Shown here: in pieces, positions 28,607 through 38,758 of the stretch
How the letters are laid out: each line of letters begins with the position of its first letter
How positions within the stretch are numbered: the stretch's first letter is position 1
NCBI GenBank assembly: GCA_020630595.1
Contig: JAHDBC010000012.1
Coordinates: 27,457 to 69,754 of the forward strand
Reading direction: 5' to 3'
Origin: Planktomarina sp.
GTDB lineage: Bacteria > Pseudomonadota > Alphaproteobacteria > Rhodobacterales > Rhodobacteraceae
DNA length: 42,298 bases
Position numbers and translations under genes: made by a program
The notes under the pieces: model-generated
Seen by the model: the letters and a program-made list of their open reading frames with translations, nothing else
What the model was told of the DNA's origin: nothing
Database searches by the model: none

Positions 28607-29569
28607 TCAGGCCGCCAACCCGTTCGATCCCATCGACAGGAATTTGCGGCGACGGTTGTTCAGCAGATCGTCTGGCGTCTGATTGGTCAATTCATCCAGC
28701 ATCGTTGCGATGGCCCCCGAAACGGCGTCCAATGTCGCTGTGCGGTCGCGGTGTGCGCCGCCCATGGGTTCTGAAATGATGGTGTCACAGATGCCCAGTT
28801 CGGTCAGGTCTTGCGCAGTCAGGCGAAGGGCTTCGGCGGCTTCGCGCATCTTTTCCGCGTCTTTCCACAGGATCGATGCACAACCTTCGGGACTGATCAC
28901 CGAATAGACCGAATGTTCCAACATCGCGACGCGGTTTGCCGTGGCAAAGGCGACCGCGCCCCCGGATCCGCCTTCGCCGATGATGATGGAAATCAACGGC
29001 ACCTTCAGTTGCAGGCATTTTTCGGTGGACCGGGCGATGGCTTCGGATTGGCCGCGTTCTTCTGCGCCTTTGCCGGGGTATGCGCCGGGGGTATCAACCA
29101 AGGTGATCACCGGCAGGCCAAACCGGTCGGCCAGATCCATCAACCGGACGGCCTTGCGATACCCTTCGGGCCGGGCCATGCCGAAATTGCGTTCGATCCG
29201 GGATTTCGTGTCGCTGCCCTTTTCATGGCCAATCACCACGACGGGCTGCCCTTTGAACCGGGCCAAGCCACCCATCACGGCCTGATCGTCGGCGAAATTG
29301 CGATCCCCGGCCAATGGCGTGTATTCAGTGAACAACGCTTCGATATAGTCTTTGCAATGGGGCCGTTCCGGGTGCCGCGCAACCTGACATTTCCGCCACG
29401 GGGTCAGGTCTTTGTACAAAGACACCAAAAGGTCAGCGGCCTTTTTGTCCAGGGCGGCGGCTTCGTCCGTGATATCCATTTCTTCGTTGGCCCGCGCCAA
29501 GGCACGCAGTTCTTCTGCCTTGCCTTCGATTTCTGCCAATGGGCGTTCGAAATCCAGATAATGGGTCAT
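28607..29569 (-). CDS. accA: Acetyl-CoA carboxylase carboxyltransferase subunit alpha
   Basis: AccA, with AccD, transfers the carboxyl group from carboxybiotin to acetyl-CoA to form malonyl-CoA, the first step of fatty acid synthesis. The 320-residue protein has the family's [13 protein letters not shown] start and the crotonase-like core with [30 protein letters not shown] and [12 protein letters not shown]. It is complete and of usual length. It diverges from a lipoprotein gene at 29700 over 130 bases. Confidence 0.97.
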
Positions 29570-29699
29570 GACGTTACGTTCCCTTGTTTCGTTGCTATAT
29601 GCAAAGCGCCGCAGCGAAATTCAATCGCAATGCAATGGATTGCGCGAAAAGCCTGACTTTGCGAAGCTACAGACCTGTTCACAGCAAAGGATTTTTCGG

Positions 29700-30158
29700 A
29701 TGTCATTTCATATCACACTGCGCGGCGGCATTTTTGCAGGCCTTGGGCTTTTGGGTTTGGCGGCTTGCGCTGTGCCTGTGGCGTTGAATTTTGGCGACAA
29801 CAGCAGCGAATATGCAAATGACGGCGAATGCGATGATCCGCGCTTCATCGGGGCGGGGATGGCGACATCGCTGAACCAAGCCAACACAGAAGCCGACGCC
29901 ACCGATTGCCGGACCCTGTTCAACAGTGGCCGGGTTGAACTGGTCAGCGTGGCCGCCGGCAAGGCCGCGACCCAATGCGATGCTATCCGATATGGCGATG
30001 ACACGTCAGAATGGGCCAATGATGGCGAATGTGACGACCCACGCTTTATGGGGCCGGGGGCATCATCGATCATGTTGGCGTCTGATTTGTTCAAAGATGC
30101 CAAGGATTGCCGTGCGACCTGTGACGCCGGCTTGGTCTGGTTGCGCACGGCGCAATAG
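29700..30158 (+). CDS. Lipoprotein with duplicated NDGECDDPRF domain
   Basis: This 152-residue protein has a lipoprotein signal (GLGLLGLAAC, Cys at about 23) and then two similar units of about 60 residues. Each begins (F/Y)GD(N/D)(S/T)SE(Y/W)ANDGECDDPRF(I/M)G and ends with a DC pair. Each unit has conserved Cys and acidic residues that could form a disulfide and a metal site. I do not know a named function. AAAGGA lies about nine bases before the ATG. Its stop is followed by a palindromic repeat at the junction with mcl1. Confidence 0.75.
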   Translation: MSFHITLRGGIFAGLGLLGLAACAVPVALNFGDNSSEYANDGECDDPRFIGAGMATSLNQANTEADATDCRTLFNSGRVELVSVAAGKAATQCDAIRYGDDTSEWANDGECDDPRFMGPGASSIMLASDLFKDAKDCRATCDAGLVWLRTAQ

Positions 30159-31478: not shown

Positions 31479-32480
31479 ATGATCCGTACTCCTTACCTTT
31501 TGTTTTTGGGCGACGCGCCCGACATGCTGGCCGCCAAAGTGGCCATCGGCATCCGGGACTGGCGCCCGGAAAATGCTGTTGGTCAGTTCCGCATGGATGG
31601 CTGTGGCGCCGATCTGGGCATTCCGGATCTGTCGCTGGACGAAGCGTTGGAACAGGGCTGCAAAACGCTGGTCGTTGGTGTGGCCAACCGGGGTGGCGTG
31701 ATTTCCGCAGCCTGGAAAGAAGTGCTGGTCGAAGCGCTGCAAAAAGGGTTCGATCTGGCGTCTGGCCTGCACAACCTGTTGCGTGACGAAGATGAACTGG
31801 TCGCGGCAGCCCGCGTCAATGGCCGCACGCTGCATGATGTGCGCATCCCATCCGTGGCCTATCCCATTGCCAACGGCAAGAAACGCACCGGCAAGCGGTG
31901 CCTGACCGTTGGCACGGATTGTTCCGTGGGCAAAATGTACACTGCGATGGCGATGGATGCTGAAATGCAAAAGCGCGGCATGAAATCCACGTTCCGCGCG
32001 ACAGGCCAGACCGGCATTCTGATCACCGGGGGCGGTGTGCCGCTGGATGCTGTGATTGCCGATTTCATGGCTGGGGCCGTCGAATATCTGACGCCAGACA
32101 ACGATGATGATCATTGGGATCATATCGAAGGGCAGGGGTCCCTGTTCCATGTATCGTATTCCGGTGTGACCATGGCGCTGGTGCACGGCGGTCAGCCTGA
32201 CGCGCTGATTTTGGGCCATGAACCGACACGGGCGCATATGCGCGGCCTGCCCGAATATCAGCAGCCATCGCTGGAAGATTTGCGCGATACCGCGCTGGCG
32301 CTTGCAAAAGTGGCGAACCCGAATTGCAAGGTCGTGGGCATTTCTGTCAACACCCAGCACATGGAAGAAGCCGAAGCATTGGCCTATCTGGCAGAGGTTG
32401 AAGACCGCATGGGCCTGCCCACCACGGACCCGATCCGCGTCGGTGCCGGCAAGCTGGTCGATGCGTTGGAAGGCATCTGA
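31479..32480 (+). CDS. dgcN: DUF1611 protein, predicted D-glutamate N-acetyltransferase DgcN
   Basis: This 333-residue protein belongs to the DUF1611 family, which has a P-loop-like GTDCSVGK (145-152) in the C-terminal domain and the phrase LGHEPTRAHMRG. In marine Proteobacteria, DgcN is described as acetylating D-glutamate with acetyl-CoA to N-acetyl-D-glutamate. The next gene encodes a DgcA-like racemase and the third a D-amino acid aminotransferase, which strongly supports this role here. The ATG at 31479 has AAGGA eight bases upstream; an in-frame ATG at 31470 overlaps that site. The stop is three bases before dgcA. Confidence 0.88.
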   Translation: MIRTPYLLFLGDAPDMLAAKVAIGIRDWRPENAVGQFRMDGCGADLGIPDLSLDEALEQGCKTLVVGVANRGGVISAAWKEVLVEALQKGFDLASGLHNLLRDEDELVAAARVNGRTLHDVRIPSVAYPIANGKKRTGKRCLTVGTDCSVGKMYTAMAMDAEMQKRGMKSTFRATGQTGILITGGGVPLDAVIADFMAGAVEYLTPDNDDDHWDHIEGQGSLFHVSYSGVTMALVHGGQPDALILGHEPTRAHMRGLPEYQQPSLEDLRDTALALAKVANPNCKVVGISVNTQHMEEAEALAYLAEVEDRMGLPTTDPIRVGAGKLVDALEGI

Positions 32481-32483
32481 CCC

Positions 32484-33446
32484 ATGAAAATCACTGTCCA
32501 GGCAGAATCGTTCAAGCTGGCCCAGGTGTTCACGATCTCGCGCGGGTCGCGGACACAGGCCGATGTCCTGACCGTCTTTGTGGAAGATCAGGGCGTGACC
32601 GGCTGGGGGGAATGCGTGCCCTATGCCCGCTATGGCGAAACGCTGGACAGTGTAACGGCGCAGATCAACGGTCTGGGGGCGCTGGATCGGCAGGAATTGC
32701 AAGATGCACTTCCTGCGGGGGCGGCCCGAAACGCAGTGGATTGTGCGCTGTGGGATTGGGAGGCCAAGCGCAAGGGCACAACTGTGGCGGCTTTGGCCGG
32801 GATCAGGGATTTGGGCCCGGAAATCACGGCCTATACGCTGTCGCTGGACACGCCCGAAGCAATGGAAGCGCAGGCCGCAAAAAACGCATTTCGCCCCCTG
32901 TTGAAGATCAAGCTGGGCACCCCCGACGATATGCCAAGGTTGGAGGCCGTGCGACGCGGCGCACCTGCATCGCGCATCATCGTGGATGCCAATGAAGGCT
33001 GGACGGCAGAAGTTTATTCCGATCTGGCCCCGCATCTGGTGCGTTTGGGGGTGGAACTGGTGGAACAACCGCTGCCAGCATCCGAAGATGACGCCCTGTT
33101 GGGGCTGGCCCGTCCACTGCCGGTGTGCGCAGATGAATCCTGCCATGACCGCACATCGCTTGCCGCAATGGCGGGCAAATACGATTTTGCCAACATCAAG
33201 CTGGATAAGACCGGTGGCCTGACCGAAGCGTTGCAGTTGCGCCAAGCGGCAGTCGATGCGGGATTTGGCATCATGGTTGGGTGCATGGTCGGCACATCGC
33301 TGGCCATGGCCCCGGCCACGCTGGTTGCGCAGGGTGCGGCCTTTACCGATCTTGACGGCCCGCTTTTGTTGGCAGAAGACCGCGATGCAGCATTGAAATT
33401 TGATGACGCCGGTGTGCATCCACCCCGGCCCGAACTTTGGGGATAG
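32484..33446 (+). CDS. dgcA: Enolase-superfamily epimerase, predicted N-acetyl-D-glutamate racemase DgcA
   Basis: This 320-residue enolase-superfamily enzyme has the catalytic lysine pair of the mandelate-racemase/muconate-lactonizing branch: K141 and K143 (LLKIKLG) and K239 (NIKLDK). Metal ligands are D168 (VDANE), E194 (VEQPLP) and D217 (ADES). The family is often annotated as L-Ala-D/L-Glu epimerase (dipeptide epimerase). Next to dgcN the better call is DgcA, which converts N-acetyl-D-glutamate to N-acetyl-L-glutamate. A dipeptide epimerase acting on murein peptides remains possible. It is tightly spaced between dgcN and dat. Confidence 0.85.
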   Translation: MKITVQAESFKLAQVFTISRGSRTQADVLTVFVEDQGVTGWGECVPYARYGETLDSVTAQINGLGALDRQELQDALPAGAARNAVDCALWDWEAKRKGTTVAALAGIRDLGPEITAYTLSLDTPEAMEAQAAKNAFRPLLKIKLGTPDDMPRLEAVRRGAPASRIIVDANEGWTAEVYSDLAPHLVRLGVELVEQPLPASEDDALLGLARPLPVCADESCHDRTSLAAMAGKYDFANIKLDKTGGLTEALQLRQAAVDAGFGIMVGCMVGTSLAMAPATLVAQGAAFTDLDGPLLLAEDRDAALKFDDAGVHPPRPELWG

Positions 33447-33450
33447 TCCA

Positions 33451-34311
33451 ATGACCCGCACTGTCTATGTAAATGGGGACTATGTTCCTGAATCCGAAGC
33501 GATGGTTTCCGTCTTTGATCGCGGCTTTCTGTTCGCCGATGGCGTCTATGAAGTCACATCTGTGCTGGATGGCAAATTGGTGGATTTTGACGGCCACGCC
33601 GTGCGGCTGGAACGGTCGTTGTCTGAACTGGGCATGGGTCATCCGATCACCAAAGACGATCTGTTGGCGGCACACCGCGAACTTGTGCGCCTGAACGATA
33701 TCACGGACGGTCTGGTTTATCTGCAAATCACACGCGGATCCGACGGCGACCGGGATTTTGTGTATCCTGCCGCTGATACGCCGCAGACGGTTGTTATGTT
33801 CACGCAGAACAAACCCGGTCTGGCCGATGCACCCGCTGCGCGCACAGGGATCAAGGTGATTTCCATCGAAGATCAGCGCTGGGCGCGCCGCGACATCAAA
33901 ACAGTGCAGTTGCTGTATCCATCCATGGCCAAAATGGCGGCCAAGGCTGCGGGCTGCGATGATGCGTGGATGATCGAAGACGGGCATGTGACCGAAGGGT
34001 CGTCCAACAACGCCTATATCGTCAAAGGCAACAAGATCATCACCCGTCAGCTGTCCAACGATATCCTGCACGGCATCACCCGGGCCGCCGTTTTGCGCTT
34101 TGCCAAAGAAGCGCAGATGGAAGTCGAAGAACGCCTGTTCACCATCGAAGAAGCCAAACAGGCAGACGAGGCATTTGTCACATCGGCCAGTACCTTTGTC
34201 ATGCCGGTCGTTGAAATCGACGGGGCCACCATTGGGACGGGCGCACCGGGCAAAATCGCGCCCCGTTTGCGCGAAATCTATCTGGATGAAAGCCGCAAAG
34301 CCGCCATCTGA
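33451..34311 (+). CDS. D-amino acid aminotransferase (class IV)
   Basis: This PLP enzyme of fold type IV (286 residues) has K150 (RRDIKTVQLL) as the Schiff-base lysine, VFDRGFLFADGVYE at the N-terminus, and ITRGSDGDRDF and VTEGSSNNAYIV, typical of D-alanine aminotransferases. It would move the amino group from D-amino acids to 2-oxoglutarate, giving D-glutamate for DgcN and DgcA. It starts four bases after the dgcA stop, making a three-gene operon. Substrate range is not certain. Confidence 0.88.
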   Translation: MTRTVYVNGDYVPESEAMVSVFDRGFLFADGVYEVTSVLDGKLVDFDGHAVRLERSLSELGMGHPITKDDLLAAHRELVRLNDITDGLVYLQITRGSDGDRDFVYPAADTPQTVVMFTQNKPGLADAPAARTGIKVISIEDQRWARRDIKTVQLLYPSMAKMAAKAAGCDDAWMIEDGHVTEGSSNNAYIVKGNKIITRQLSNDILHGITRAAVLRFAKEAQMEVEERLFTIEEAKQADEAFVTSASTFVMPVVEIDGATIGTGAPGKIAPRLREIYLDESRKAAI

Positions 34312-34332
34312 GGCATTTGAGTCATAAACCGT

Positions 34333-34429: not shown

Positions 34430-37400
34430 ATGCGGACTATTCTGGGTGCAATCGTGCTGTGCGGTGGCGTCGGCGTTTTGGGCTGGTGGGGATCACAAAA
34501 CCATGCGGTTCGCATGGAAACAGATGTCACCGAAGGCGCACGCGCGGCGATTGCAGGGGGCAAGCATCCGCTGTCCACATCTGTCAGTGGGCGGGATATT
34601 CAGGTCTCTGGTCTGGTCGACAGCGAAGCGGACCGCGATGCCATTCTGGCGACCCTGAATGATGTGAACGGGCGCCGCGTTGTGCGCGACGATCTGACGG
34701 TTCTGGCCACCGCGTCACCCTATGTGTTTCAATCGACCTTGTCCGATGGGGATCAATCCTACAGCGGGAACGTGCCATCCGAAGCGCAGCGCGTTGCGTT
34801 TGCCGATCGCATCGGTGCCGCCGCCGCAGGGCTGACCCTGTCTGCCGGAATGCCAGATGATCAATGGCCCGGTGTTGTGGGGCAGGGTCTGGATGGATTG
34901 TCCCAGCTGAAATCCGGCAGTGTTGAAGTGTCCGACCGCGATGTGCGGATCGAAGGGCTGGCGGCGTTGCCATCGAACCGTGATGCGGCCCTTGCAGCCC
35001 TTGCTGGTTTGCCAGACGGATACACGCTGACGGATGCGATCACGGTCGAAGACGATGGCACCCCCATGCGCCTGACCGTTCGCAAGGATGCCGAAACGGC
35101 GACCGCCGTGGGCAAACTGCCACAGGATGCGGACATTGACGGTTTGCAAGCCGACTTGGGCCAGCAGATGGACAGCACCGGGGTTGCATTGGCGCAGGTC
35201 GGTGGACCAACGCCTGATTGGAACGATTTCAGCCGGTCCGGTGTGACGGCCCTGTCCATGCTGGACAGCGGCACATTGTCGATCAGCGACACCGATCTGT
35301 CACTGACCGGTGCCGCCACCCGCGATGGCAAAATCAGTGCAGAGGCCACATTGGCCGCGATCGGGTCTGATTATGGTGTCCGGTCTGACATTCAGTTGAT
35401 TGATGATGGCACCCCGCTGCGCCTGTCTTTGCAAAAAGGCGAAGATGGCACCGCTGGTACGGGGAAACTGCCCTATGGCATGACCGCCGCGGATGTGGAA
35501 TCCGCCTTCGGCGCTGGTGTCGATGGGTCGTCCATTCAGACTGCCAATATTGATGCTGAACAAGCGGCTTGGTCCGACGTGGCCCTGAATGGTGTGCGCG
35601 GATTGTCTGCGCTGACGATGGGCAGTCTGGAAATTGAAGGGCAAACGATGGCCCTGCGCGGCGTGGCCACCCGTCAGGGCAAGGCCGATGCCGAAGCCGC
35701 CGCCCTTGCGCTGCGCGACCCGGCGTTTGACATCACGACCGATATTTCCATCGCCGATGACGGTCGTCCGTTTGCGCTTGCTGCGGGGACCGGTACTTTT
35801 GCGCAAACCCCCACGGGCAAACTGCCCTTTGGCATGGACGCTGGGCTGGTGAATTCCGTTTTGGGAATTGATGCCCCGAAAGATCAGCTGGAATTGGCCG
35901 AAATCGAAAGCGCGGGCGGCCAATGGCCCACCGCGGCAGGCCGCGCATTGGAAGGGTTGAATGCCCTTGAAAACGGGCAGTTGTCCATTGTCGGCCAAAC
36001 CATTCGGCTGACCGGCGACGGAACCCGCGCCCAACGCAACGCCGCGTTGGATGCATTGCGCAATGTGGACCCCGCATTTGATGTGTCGTCCGACATCAGC
36101 TTGGTGGATGATGGTGCACCCTTTGCACTGACCGTTCAGAAATCAGACACAGGCCAGATCGCCGATGGCAAATTGCCCTTTGGCATGACAGCCGATCAGA
36201 TCGCCGCAGGGCTTGACGGTGCCACCGATGCTGGCGGCGTTGGCGTGGCCGAAATCGAAGACGGCGCCGGCACATGGCCCGCCATCGCAGGCGGCGGTGT
36301 CGAAGCGTTGAATGCGTTGCGCAATGGGACATTGACCATCACGGACCGCAACGTTGAATTGACCGGCGTTGCCACCCGTGCAGGGCGCGCAGCAGCGCTC
36401 GCGACCCTTGATGGGTTGCCCGATGATGCGCAGGTCGCATCGGACATCAGCATTTATGATGACGGGGCCCCGTTCGGACTGCGCGTTGCATCTGACGGTG
36501 CGGCGGCAACAGCATCGGGCAAACTGCCCTTTGATCTGGATCCCGCGTCCATCGCATCTGATCTGGGACTGCCAACGGATGCATCATCCGTTCAGCAAGC
36601 GGAAATTGGCGGTGACGCTGATCTGAACACGGCGATTGCGCTGGGTCTTGGATCATTGGCCGATCTGAACAGCGGCACGTTGGATGTTGGCCCCGGCCAG
36701 CTGACCCTGACCGGTGTGGCCACCCGCGCCGCGCGTGATGCGGCGATTGCAAATCTGTCTGCAACCCCGGATGGCATTGCGGTCAACACCGATATCGCCA
36801 TCGCGGATGATGGCGTGCCGTTCGGTTTGTCCGTTCTTGCAACTGATGCTGACGTGACCGCCAGTGGCAAACTGCCGTTCGGCATGTCGGGCGATGTCGT
36901 CGGCACGGTTCTGAACAGCGATGTGGATACCGCAGGTTTGCGCAATGCTGAAATCGAAAGCGACGCGGGTTTCGCCCAAAAGGCACAGGTGGGGCTGACC
37001 GCGCTGGATCAGCTTCAATCCGGCAAGCTGGATGTTTCGGAAACGGAAATCCGTCTGTCTGGTGTTGGGCTGACGCCTGCGGATCAGGATGCTGTTGATG
37101 CGATCCTGGCCGATGCGCCAGATGGCGTGACGGTCACCACCGACCTGACATTCCTGGATGATGGTACGCCGCCATCTTGGACGCTGGATTATGCAAATGA
37201 TGCTGCGACCGTTGTGGCGGGTAAACTGCCAGCGGGTCTGTCGCCCGCCGGTGCATTCGATGCGCTGGGCGTCCAACCCGGATCGGTTGGGGCACAGGAA
37301 GGTTTGACCGGAACACCGGATGCGGCCGTCGCGGTTTTGAATGCCGTGGCCCCGTGGAAAGACCGTGTCGAAGCCATGACCGTAACCGCCGTGGGGGATG

Positions 37401-38110
37401 ACATTTCGGTGCGTGCTGTTGCCGGACCGGAAGAACCCGTTGATGCGCTGCGTGCGGCGATGGAAGCCACCATCGATGCACCGCTGACAGTTGTTGCATC
37501 GCCCAATGCTGTTGCGCTGGGCACCGTGCGCACCCGTGCAGACGGACGGTCGGAAATCTTCACAGCGTCTGGTTGGGACTTGGTGCCGGAACCAGAACCC
37601 GCGCCAGAACCAGAGCCGGAGCCAGAACCCGCGCCGGAACCAGAGCCGGAACCTGCGGCTGAACCGGAACCAGCGCCACTTGTTGTTGGATCAGATGCAT
37701 TCTTTGCCTTTGCCCCATCTGTGGCGGCCTGTACCGAACGCAGCCAACTGGTGCTGGAACAATCAAAGATCAACTTTGTGACCTCTGGTTCTGATGTGGA
37801 TGCATCATCGGCAGAAACCGTCGGCTATTTGGCGCGGATCATTGCAAACTGTTTGCAAGACCCGAACCTGACTGTCGAAGTGGGCGGCCACACCGACAGC
37901 CGCGGCAGCGAAGCGGGCAACCAACGCCTGTCCGAAGCGCGCGCGAATTCTGTCGTGGCCGAACTGGCGGGTCTGGGTGTGACATCTGACCGGATCACCG
38001 CGGTGGGGTATGGCGAATTGCGCCCCATTGCAGACAACGAAACCGAAGAAGGTCTGGCGGCCAACCGCCGCACCGAATTCACTTGGTCCGACGCGACCAA
38101 CAGCCAATAA
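34430..38110 (+). CDS. Giant OmpA-family protein with seven tandem BON-like repeats
   Basis: The 1226-residue protein starts with one hydrophobic helix (RTILGAIVLCGGVGVLGWWG). A BON-like unit is next. Seven tandem units of 115, 117, 118, 117, 117, 116 and 118 residues follow, each opening with GKLP (GNVP in the first) and closing with DDGxP and a short beta tail. A partial eighth unit, a Pro-Glu linker (about residues 1050-1082) and a C-terminal OmpA peptidoglycan-binding domain (EVGGHTDSRGSEAGNQRLSEAR) complete it. It is probably anchored in the inner membrane and spans the periplasm to the cell wall. The ATG at 34430 is preferred; a GTG at 34331 is in frame. Confidence 0.88.
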   Translation: MRTILGAIVLCGGVGVLGWWGSQNHAVRMETDVTEGARAAIAGGKHPLSTSVSGRDIQVSGLVDSEADRDAILATLNDVNGRRVVRDDLTVLATASPYVFQSTLSDGDQSYSGNVPSEAQRVAFADRIGAAAAGLTLSAGMPDDQWPGVVGQGLDGLSQLKSGSVEVSDRDVRIEGLAALPSNRDAALAALAGLPDGYTLTDAITVEDDGTPMRLTVRKDAETATAVGKLPQDADIDGLQADLGQQMDSTGVALAQVGGPTPDWNDFSRSGVTALSMLDSGTLSISDTDLSLTGAATRDGKISAEATLAAIGSDYGVRSDIQLIDDGTPLRLSLQKGEDGTAGTGKLPYGMTAADVESAFGAGVDGSSIQTANIDAEQAAWSDVALNGVRGLSALTMGSLEIEGQTMALRGVATRQGKADAEAAALALRDPAFDITTDISIADDGRPFALAAGTGTFAQTPTGKLPFGMDAGLVNSVLGIDAPKDQLELAEIESAGGQWPTAAGRALEGLNALENGQLSIVGQTIRLTGDGTRAQRNAALDALRNVDPAFDVSSDISLVDDGAPFALTVQKSDTGQIADGKLPFGMTADQIAAGLDGATDAGGVGVAEIEDGAGTWPAIAGGGVEALNALRNGTLTITDRNVELTGVATRAGRAAALATLDGLPDDAQVASDISIYDDGAPFGLRVASDGAAATASGKLPFDLDPASIASDLGLPTDASSVQQAEIGGDADLNTAIALGLGSLADLNSGTLDVGPGQLTLTGVATRAARDAAIANLSATPDGIAVNTDIAIADDGVPFGLSVLATDADVTASGKLPFGMSGDVVGTVLNSDVDTAGLRNAEIESDAGFAQKAQVGLTALDQLQSGKLDVSETEIRLSGVGLTPADQDAVDAILADAPDGVTVTTDLTFLDDGTPPSWTLDYANDAATVVAGKLPAGLSPAGAFDALGVQPGSVGAQEGLTGTPDAAVAVLNAVAPWKDRVEAMTVTAVGDDISVRAVAGPEEPVDALRAAMEATIDAPLTVVASPNAVALGTVRTRADGRSEIFTASGWDLVPEPEPAPEPEPEPEPAPEPEPEPAAEPEPAPLVVGSDAFFAFAPSVAACTERSQLVLEQSKINFVTSGSDVDASSAETVGYLARIIANCLQDPNLTVEVGGHTDSRGSEAGNQRLSEARANSVVAELAGLGVTSDRITAVGYGELRPIADNETEEGLAANRRTEFTWSDATNSQ

Positions 38111-38131: not shown

Positions 38132-38758
38132 ATGTTCCAGGAATGGGGATTTTTGCTGGGCGAAATCTGGGTCCTTTTGGCCCTCGCCGCTTTGATTGGT
38201 CTTTTGGCCGGATGGATCATCTGGGGCCGTGCCTCCAGCTATGAAGGGGGCGATGTGACCAACCTTCAGGCGGATCTGGATGCGTGCCGCGCGAAACATG
38301 CGGACAAAGACGCATATATCAAAGATCTGGAAGCTGACTTGGCCGCATGCCAAGCGGCACGCGATACTGCGCCTGTCGCCGCACCTGTTCCAGTGGCGGC
38401 ACCCGTTGCCGCAGAACCGGAAGGTGTCGATTACGATGGCGACGGTGTGATCGAAGGCAAAGACGAAGGCGTGAAACCAGACACCCTGACCGCAGCCCGC
38501 GGTGGCGTTGCGGACGATCTGAAAATGATCAAGGGGATCGGGCCGAAAATGGAACGCCTGTGTAACGATCTGGGCTTTTTCCACTTTGATCAGGTCGCCA
38601 GCTGGACCGCTGACGAAGTTGCATGGGTTGATGCCAATCTGGAAGGGTTCAAGGGCCGCGTGTCGCGCGACAATTGGGTCGAACAGGCCAAGGTTTTGGC
38701 GGCTGGTGGCACAACCGAATTCGCCAACAAAGTCAAAGATGGCGGCGTTTACGACTGA
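38132..38758 (+). CDS. Membrane-anchored helix-hairpin-helix protein
   Basis: One N-terminal helix (IWVLLALAALIGLLAGWIIWG) is followed by a coiled coil with paired Cys (DLDACRAKHADKDAYIKD, DLAACQAAR), a Pro/Ala-Val linker, an acidic YDGDGVIEGKDEG loop like an EF-hand, and a C-terminal helix-hairpin-helix (DDLKMIKGIGPKMERLCNDLG). The last domain resembles the COG3743 fold fused to NADH dehydrogenase subunit E in related bacteria. The ATG follows AAGAAGGG and lies 21 bases after the OmpA-like gene. The two are probably one operon. Its function is unknown. Confidence 0.8.
   Translation: MFQEWGFLLGEIWVLLALAALIGLLAGWIIWGRASSYEGGDVTNLQADLDACRAKHADKDAYIKDLEADLAACQAARDTAPVAAPVPVAAPVAAEPEGVDYDGDGVIEGKDEGVKPDTLTAARGGVADDLKMIKGIGPKMERLCNDLGFFHFDQVASWTADEVAWVDANLEGFKGRVSRDNWVEQAKVLAAGGTTEFANKVKDGGVYD

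Follow-up and report, generated by a model that had tools for sequence, protein, structure and literature searches.

A tandem array of BON-like modules, variable in number among relatives, in a putative membrane-to-wall tether of Planktomarina

The best solved counterpart of the protein described here is Rv0899 (ArfA, OmpATb), in which a membrane anchor is followed by a central BON-type domain and an OmpA-like domain. The account of its structure used here places six strands opposite three helices in the central domain (PMC6151718). A wider grouping of BON proteins is given in Table 1 of PMC7806268, where cluster 7 has the architecture BON+BON+OmpA, with 157 (161) entries under alpha, and cluster 3 has three plus one BON domains; the same source describes DolP and OsmY as proteins with two BON domains, the first a lipoprotein and the second periplasmic, and names no OmpA domain for either in the sections drawn on. 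A 2025 paper puts the maximum at three BON domains among the pathogens that it surveyed (PMC11747388). We found no account of BON arrays as expanded as the present one in the open literature searched.

The window analysed here, a stretch of 42,298 nucleotides from Planktomarina sp. (assembly GCA_020630595.1, contig JAHDBC010000012.1), encodes a protein with the same order of parts as Rv0899: a predicted anchor, BON-like modules and a C-terminal OmpA-like domain (Table 1). An alternative GTG start at 34331 would extend it to 1259 residues. Neither a lipobox nor a clear signal-peptidase site is evident at its N-terminus by inspection, and a lipobox cysteine of the DolP type was not found, the cysteine at residue 11 being preceded by IVL with no Gly, Ala or Ser; a similar hydrophobic start is present in most of the relatives compared. 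The OmpA domain aligns with Omp38 (3td3) and shares with it the GHTD and LSxAR motifs, which we take to be the site of the wall-binding residues, and these motifs are suggestive of peptidoglycan binding by the array protein. Other Pfam families listed for the protein all fall below cutoff and lie on the linker region.

Table 1. Features of the array protein and its neighbours, in coordinates of the window. The Pfam cutoffs are 27 bits for PF04972 and 27.2 bits for PF00691.
Feature	Coordinates	Strand	Evidence
DgcN	31491..32480	+	NF041892, 552.8 bits
DgcA, N-acetyl-D-Glu racemase	32484..33446	+	NF042940, 496.6 bits
D-amino-acid transaminase, upstream neighbour	33451..34311	+	NF005209, 388.9 bits
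Array protein, 1226 aa	34430..38110	+	open reading frame, ATG start
Predicted N-terminal membrane anchor, aa 3-21	34436..34492	+	hydrophobic stretch read by eye
B0, full BON module (helix-strand-strand-helix-strand)	34502..34702	+	PF04972, 32.3 bits; model residues 3-69
Unit 1 (GNVP), orthologous first unit	34766..35110	+	held-out profile; clade of first units
Unit 2	35111..35461	+	GKLP motif, held-out profile
Unit 3	35462..35815	+	GKLP motif, held-out profile
Unit 4	35816..36166	+	GKLP motif, held-out profile; modelled with units 5 and 6
Unit 5	36167..36517	+	GKLP motif, held-out profile; model
Unit 6	36518..36865	+	GKLP motif, held-out profile; model
Unit 7	36866..37219	+	GKLP motif, held-out profile
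Unit 8, diverged last unit (GKLP), two modules and extra strands	37220..37585	+	modules A8 and B8 in model
Pro/Glu/Ala-rich linker	37586..37678	+	repeat family D1
OmpA-like peptidoglycan-binding domain	37775..38068	+	PF00691, 63.1 bits
HHH protein, 208 aa, putative partner	38132..38758	+	directly downstream of the array gene

An earlier note on this DNA had read the central part of the protein as seven tandem repeats, opening with GNVP in the first unit and bounded thereafter by GKLP. The motifs stand exactly where it placed them, at the unit starts given in Table 1 and with GKLP spacings of 351, 354, 351, 351, 348 and 354 bases, and the seven units, of 115-118 residues each, follow one another in tandem from 34766 to 37219. 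When scored with leave-one-out profiles the held-out units reach 70.0-109.7 bits against 7.0-13.0 for the best shuffle (up to 200 shuffles per unit, 196-200 reported), with the caveat that each held-out unit had helped to shape the alignment supplying the remaining rows. The count of seven clear units holds, because the stretch from 37220 scores just 9.4 bits with the unit profile (best shuffle 5.4). Relatives, most of which among those compared have a GKLP-like last unit after the final full one, and structure prediction point to this stretch as a distinct, diverged last unit. The proposed DDGxP end is found in all seven units (at 35051, 35402, 35756, 36107, 36458, 36806 and 37157); the TR of the proposed core is present in five and missing from the first and seventh. 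Identity is 26-46% between the seven units at the amino-acid level and 39-53% between all eight at the DNA level, and no exact word longer than 16 bases is common to them, which argues for old duplications and makes an assembly artefact an unlikely origin of the repeats.

Structure prediction changes the number of domains in each unit. In an AlphaFold2 model of units 4-6, built with 39 related stretches (pLDDT 93.7, pTM 0.80), the three consecutive units align in structure, and each runs strand-strand-helix-strand and then helix-strand-strand-helix-strand. Each unit is accordingly modelled as two BON-like modules, a short one without the first helix and then a whole one; the earlier description of BON-like units in an OmpA protein was correct, whereas its single BON module per unit, from one GKLP to the next, is ruled out by the model. 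The alignment used (A2) holds non-overlapping three-unit stretches, another (A1) having been set aside since overlapping stretches of the same protein had been matched with one another at an offset of one unit. A model of the whole array (residues 23-1061, 27 sequences; pLDDT 88.1, pTM 0.39) contains seventeen modules, nine of them full and eight short, with extra strands after them, and includes a full BON module ahead of the first unit that had previously been overlooked. With a pTM of 0.39 there is no confident rigid rod, and the overall shape is not fixed by the model.

Searches with the units lead to the same fold. Of the 39 three-unit stretches, 27 are matched by the BON profile at E≤10, the lowest value being 1.7e-9; the stretch from the window protein gives E 0.0015, under Pfam's cutoff. 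In a profile search of the PDB with the three-unit alignment, which returned eight sequences at E≤10, the central domain of Rv0899/OmpATb (2ksm/2kgs) is best at E 0.0024 and OsmY (8rjx) second at E 0.018, the rest being at 0.019 or above. When the three-unit model is run through Foldseek, OmpATb 2kgs likewise ranks first (probability 1.00, E 4.9e-4, rmsd 6.3; TM 0.64 when normalised to the length of the target, 0.24 to that of the query), and CdsD, a type III secretion protein, ranks second; these two alone pass E 0.001. OsmY 8rjx and DolP 7a2d were also matched, and further matches (gelsolin, S-adenosylmethionine synthetase and others) have E 2.5e-3 and higher with low probability. As modelled, the array would in effect be the ArfA central domain, repeated.

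BON domains can also be binding surfaces, and the array might be read as a lipid- or protein-binding one, in which unit number sets avidity and not length. BON2 of DolP is described as binding anionic phospholipid (PMC7806268), and in the units a Trp or Phe recurs close to where the first helix begins, W51 being present in at least 90% of the 39 rows of A2. The same source presents W127 of DolP as a specialisation absent from BON1 and from OsmY, however, and we regard this reading as unlikely.

The number of units was compared among relatives found in a family search of 394 genomes from 393 genera, with the N-terminal part and first unit as query (E≤1e-10). The array was matched in 48 genomes, four of which have a second copy, and nine further genomes from the genus bring the set to 61 genes. 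Of these, 54 could be scored; five were dropped as truncated or broken (L048, L064, L088, which was fetched again as L121, L109 and L118) and two (L075 and L081) since the unit scheme could not accommodate their ends. Seven paralogues (L063, L092, L096, L099, L100, L101 and L104) were set apart, and loci L124-L132 and L133-L212 stand outside the 54-protein count. One protein (L116) was scored as having two units, its third reaching 34 bits against a cutoff of 35, with a length that fits three. The 54 proteins have one full unit before the last in 13 cases, two in 6, three in 26, four in 1, five in 1, six in 1, seven in 2, eight in 1 and nine in 3; on this scale the window protein has seven. 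Protein length follows 111 n + 389 for n full units (r 0.981, 54 proteins), and if the relatives are built like the window's array they would have 2n+3 modules in total, from 5 to 21. A fixed count is therefore ruled out for the family. The window's array is not the largest either, since three congeners (G301, G302 and G303) have nine full units. A class-wide search matched 11 of 385 genomes at E≤1e-12, five of them from the same family, the window's included, and six from others; the window protein apart, the open frames listed for these matches are of 434-798 residues.

These numbers bear on the suggestion that the repeats act as a precise periplasmic ruler, in which unit number sets a defined distance between the inner membrane and peptidoglycan. 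A predicted anchor at one end, a wall-binding domain at the other and regular units between them are what such a device would have, and the number is constant inside sets of close relatives: of the 20 genus genomes, three carry nine units and seven carry three, beside the window's seven. Yet relatives with the same transaminase and HHH genes beside the array range from 1 to 9 full units, one clade (100/100) holds 1, 1, 2, 3 and 3, and the whole-array model gives no confident rod, so that a fixed-length ruler is not supported. Size speaks against it too. The three modules of YscD are reported to span 6.5 nm when compact and 11.5 nm when extended in simulation, and basal bodies 30-36 nm (PMC3728920); seventeen modules stacked linearly in the manner of YscD would span 37-65 nm, more than the basal bodies, although this is a guide only, as ArfA-type units may pack more tightly. 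We consider a precise ruler decidedly improbable.

On a tree of the constant parts, whose bootstrap had not quite settled, unit number has changed at least 19 times among the 54 proteins (the least possible being 8), and a pair joined at 99/89 holds seven and one units. With labels shuffled on the tree the mean is 25.7 changes, and none of 200 shuffles is as low as 19; unit number is clustered on the tree, and is therefore also inherited, a pattern that a ruler would share. Expansion and contraction thus recur among the relatives scored. Which units take part was followed in a second tree, built on 110 columns from 64 units that belong to 11 proteins; many of its deep forks lack resolution. 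Each of the 11 proteins has its first unit in a single clade (99/94); the last units, of which only three passed the script's cut, make up another group (100/98), and interior units branch largely by lineage. In the three proteins with nine units the third unit is sister to the seventh (96/84) and the fifth to the eighth (95/89). G303 carries two copies that are both related to a single unit in G301 and G302, and it lacks another of their units; interior units turn over between these congeners at a constant total of nine.

Repeated changes of number and such turnover at a constant nine, together with the absence or breakage of the gene in some genomes, are what would be expected if the chain were a passive linker whose unit number wanders neutrally by unequal exchange. 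Against drift of this kind stand the conservation of first units, the clustering of unit number beyond all 200 shuffles and the three units held by 15 of the 16 transaminase-side copies without HHH, though 14 of the 16 belong to one clade. On balance we doubt it.

The gene is dispensable, because copies that look broken exist and because it is absent from most genomes of the family and from nine of the 20 of the genus. In those nine no array match was found, the best matches being other OmpA proteins; completeness is below 90% for six of these genomes. The apparently truncated or broken genes lie in five genomes (G063, G123, G149, G072 and G388). In one congener without an array, a 167-residue frame (G297:C7:72862-73233) matches the anchor and first BON only (query 1-124, E 6.6e-14) and is possibly a remnant or minimal form of the array gene. 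Some match to the window protein exists in all 295 family genomes searched, many of those listed being to the OmpA domain only. The window's genome also encodes a second BON/OmpA protein of 623 residues (L096:4398-6269, G000:C23; PF00691 80.2 bits, PF04972 33.8 bits), and six proteins like it from other genomes comprise four of 613-685 residues and two of 881 and 992.

A phmmer search detected the C-terminal OmpA domain in 43 of the 54 proteins, the 11 misses being the eight-unit L057, L110 and nine of the fourteen proteins in the clade without HHH. With Pfam at E≤0.01 no OmpA domain was found in L057, L078 or L110; L083 has a weak match below cutoff, L061 one just above it (29.0 bits) and L093 one of 56.9 bits. 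Since even an eight-unit protein lacks the domain by this measure, wall binding is not universal. The units of that same protein (L057:2868-6284), as they stand in A2, have no DDG motif.

The genes around the array offer a further view of its setting. The order dgcN-dgcA-transaminase, array, HHH, N-formylglutamate amidohydrolase-like and pyruvate kinase recurs in many of the loci compared. The DgcN-DgcA route is described as converting D-glutamate to L-glutamate (PMC10845958). None of the six neighbours scanned, nor the array protein, is a secretion protein. D-glutamate and D-alanine are components of the cell wall, and the dgcN-dgcA neighbourhood would for that reason fit a wall-related setting. 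Also in the window, a small protein at 29568-30158 contains two near-identical motifs, EYANDGECDDPRF and EWANDGECDDPRF, and is apparently a duplicated cysteine-containing module.

The array gene adjoins the transaminase gene in 35 of the 54 loci, and a gene for the HHH protein lies close downstream in 36, the window included (19 with the transaminase and 17 without). The window's HHH and transaminase neighbours were entered by hand in this count, which allowed genes to overlap as start codons were taken mechanically. Relatives with HHH have 1-9 units, and the same full range is seen when the transaminase is also beside; of the transaminase-side copies without HHH all but one have three, the exception being scored as two with a third just under the cutoff. 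This contrast is best taken as a difference of clade and not as many independent events, because of the single clade that holds most of these copies. Copies with and without HHH occur together in four genomes (G127, G082, G190 and G250).

The HHH protein has an N-terminal membrane segment, a charged centre that looks coiled-coil-like by eye and a helix-hairpin-helix-like C-terminus, with a weak, below-cutoff match to HHH_5 (E 0.054). Among the matches to it that were listed, all 22 aligning from residue 5 or earlier (a cut of our own choosing) are from array genomes; in three genomes without an array (G380, G108 and G062) matches start at residues 11-14. Some part of the protein is matched in 355 of the 394 genomes, through a common C-terminal domain, to which models of NuoE, ribosomal L21 and S2, and phasin can be matched as well; as this domain is common to unrelated proteins, its presence alone does not imply DNA binding. 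In many relatives GRR or GR comes directly after the hydrophobic segment, together with a charged stretch, a pattern judged by eye as suggesting a cytoplasmic C-terminus.

Our preferred reading, to which we give a probability of roughly 0.55, is that the array protein is an inner-membrane-anchored, peptidoglycan-binding tether, a flexible double-BON chain of adjustable length that acts with the HHH protein. An inner-membrane-to-peptidoglycan link is the likeliest topology: the N-terminal helix would keep the protein in the inner membrane, the 17 BON-like modules would cross or fill the periplasmic space and the OmpA domain would grip the wall. The first and last units may be conserved for connecting the chain to the anchor and to the wall-binding end, with interior units as exchangeable spacers that duplication adds and deletion removes, and through whose number reach or compliance could be retuned from species to species. 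The chain of YscD is described as elastic (PMC3728920), a property that would suit a compliant tether. The HHH protein of the inner membrane, whose gene follows that of the array, is probably the working partner of the array protein, the two genes forming a conserved pair. More speculatively, and in our opinion very improbably, the two proteins could make up one envelope-crossing tie, their membrane segments meeting in the inner membrane, with the OmpA end holding the wall, the cytoplasmic HHH holding nucleic acid or a nucleic-acid-bound machine, and interior BON number setting slack or reach; if true, this would be a link of evolvable length between cell wall and cytoplasm. Whether bacteria adjust the spacing or the compliance between wall and inner membrane is a question hard to approach unless a single tether occurs naturally in several lengths; these related genes, 35 of the 54 beside the same transaminase, offer every full-unit number from 1 to 9.

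Of the known systems, DolP and OsmY have the BON fold in common with the array protein, and their architecture of exactly two BON domains and no OmpA domain is not that of the array. YscD, CdsD and PrgH carry chained abbab modules on an inner-membrane protein, extensible in YscD, and the array protein has a similar chain; the periplasmic fold is all that they share, and the array protein ends in an OmpA domain. Cluster 7 of PMC7806268 comes closer, with BON domains followed by OmpA and many alphaproteobacterial members, and against this published BON+BON+OmpA architecture the expansion that had been proposed for the array is borne out. That cluster is listed with two BON domains, whereas Pfam reports one in the window protein where structure prediction finds seventeen modules, so that Pfam may under-count expanded members. 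Rv0899 has the same order of parts, the anchor of the array protein being a predicted one; its central domain has the strand and helix make-up of one unit and is the best solved match to the units by both sequence profile and fold, and its OmpA domain matches too. It differs in having a single central domain, where the array protein has seven clear units followed by a diverged eighth, as well as one additional BON module, and where the relatives have 1 to 9 full units. The array protein, with its BON domain, central domain of the Rv0899 fold and C-terminal OmpA-like domain, is closest to the ArfA-like BON+BON+OmpA architecture, as an expanded variant of it and not a plain member.
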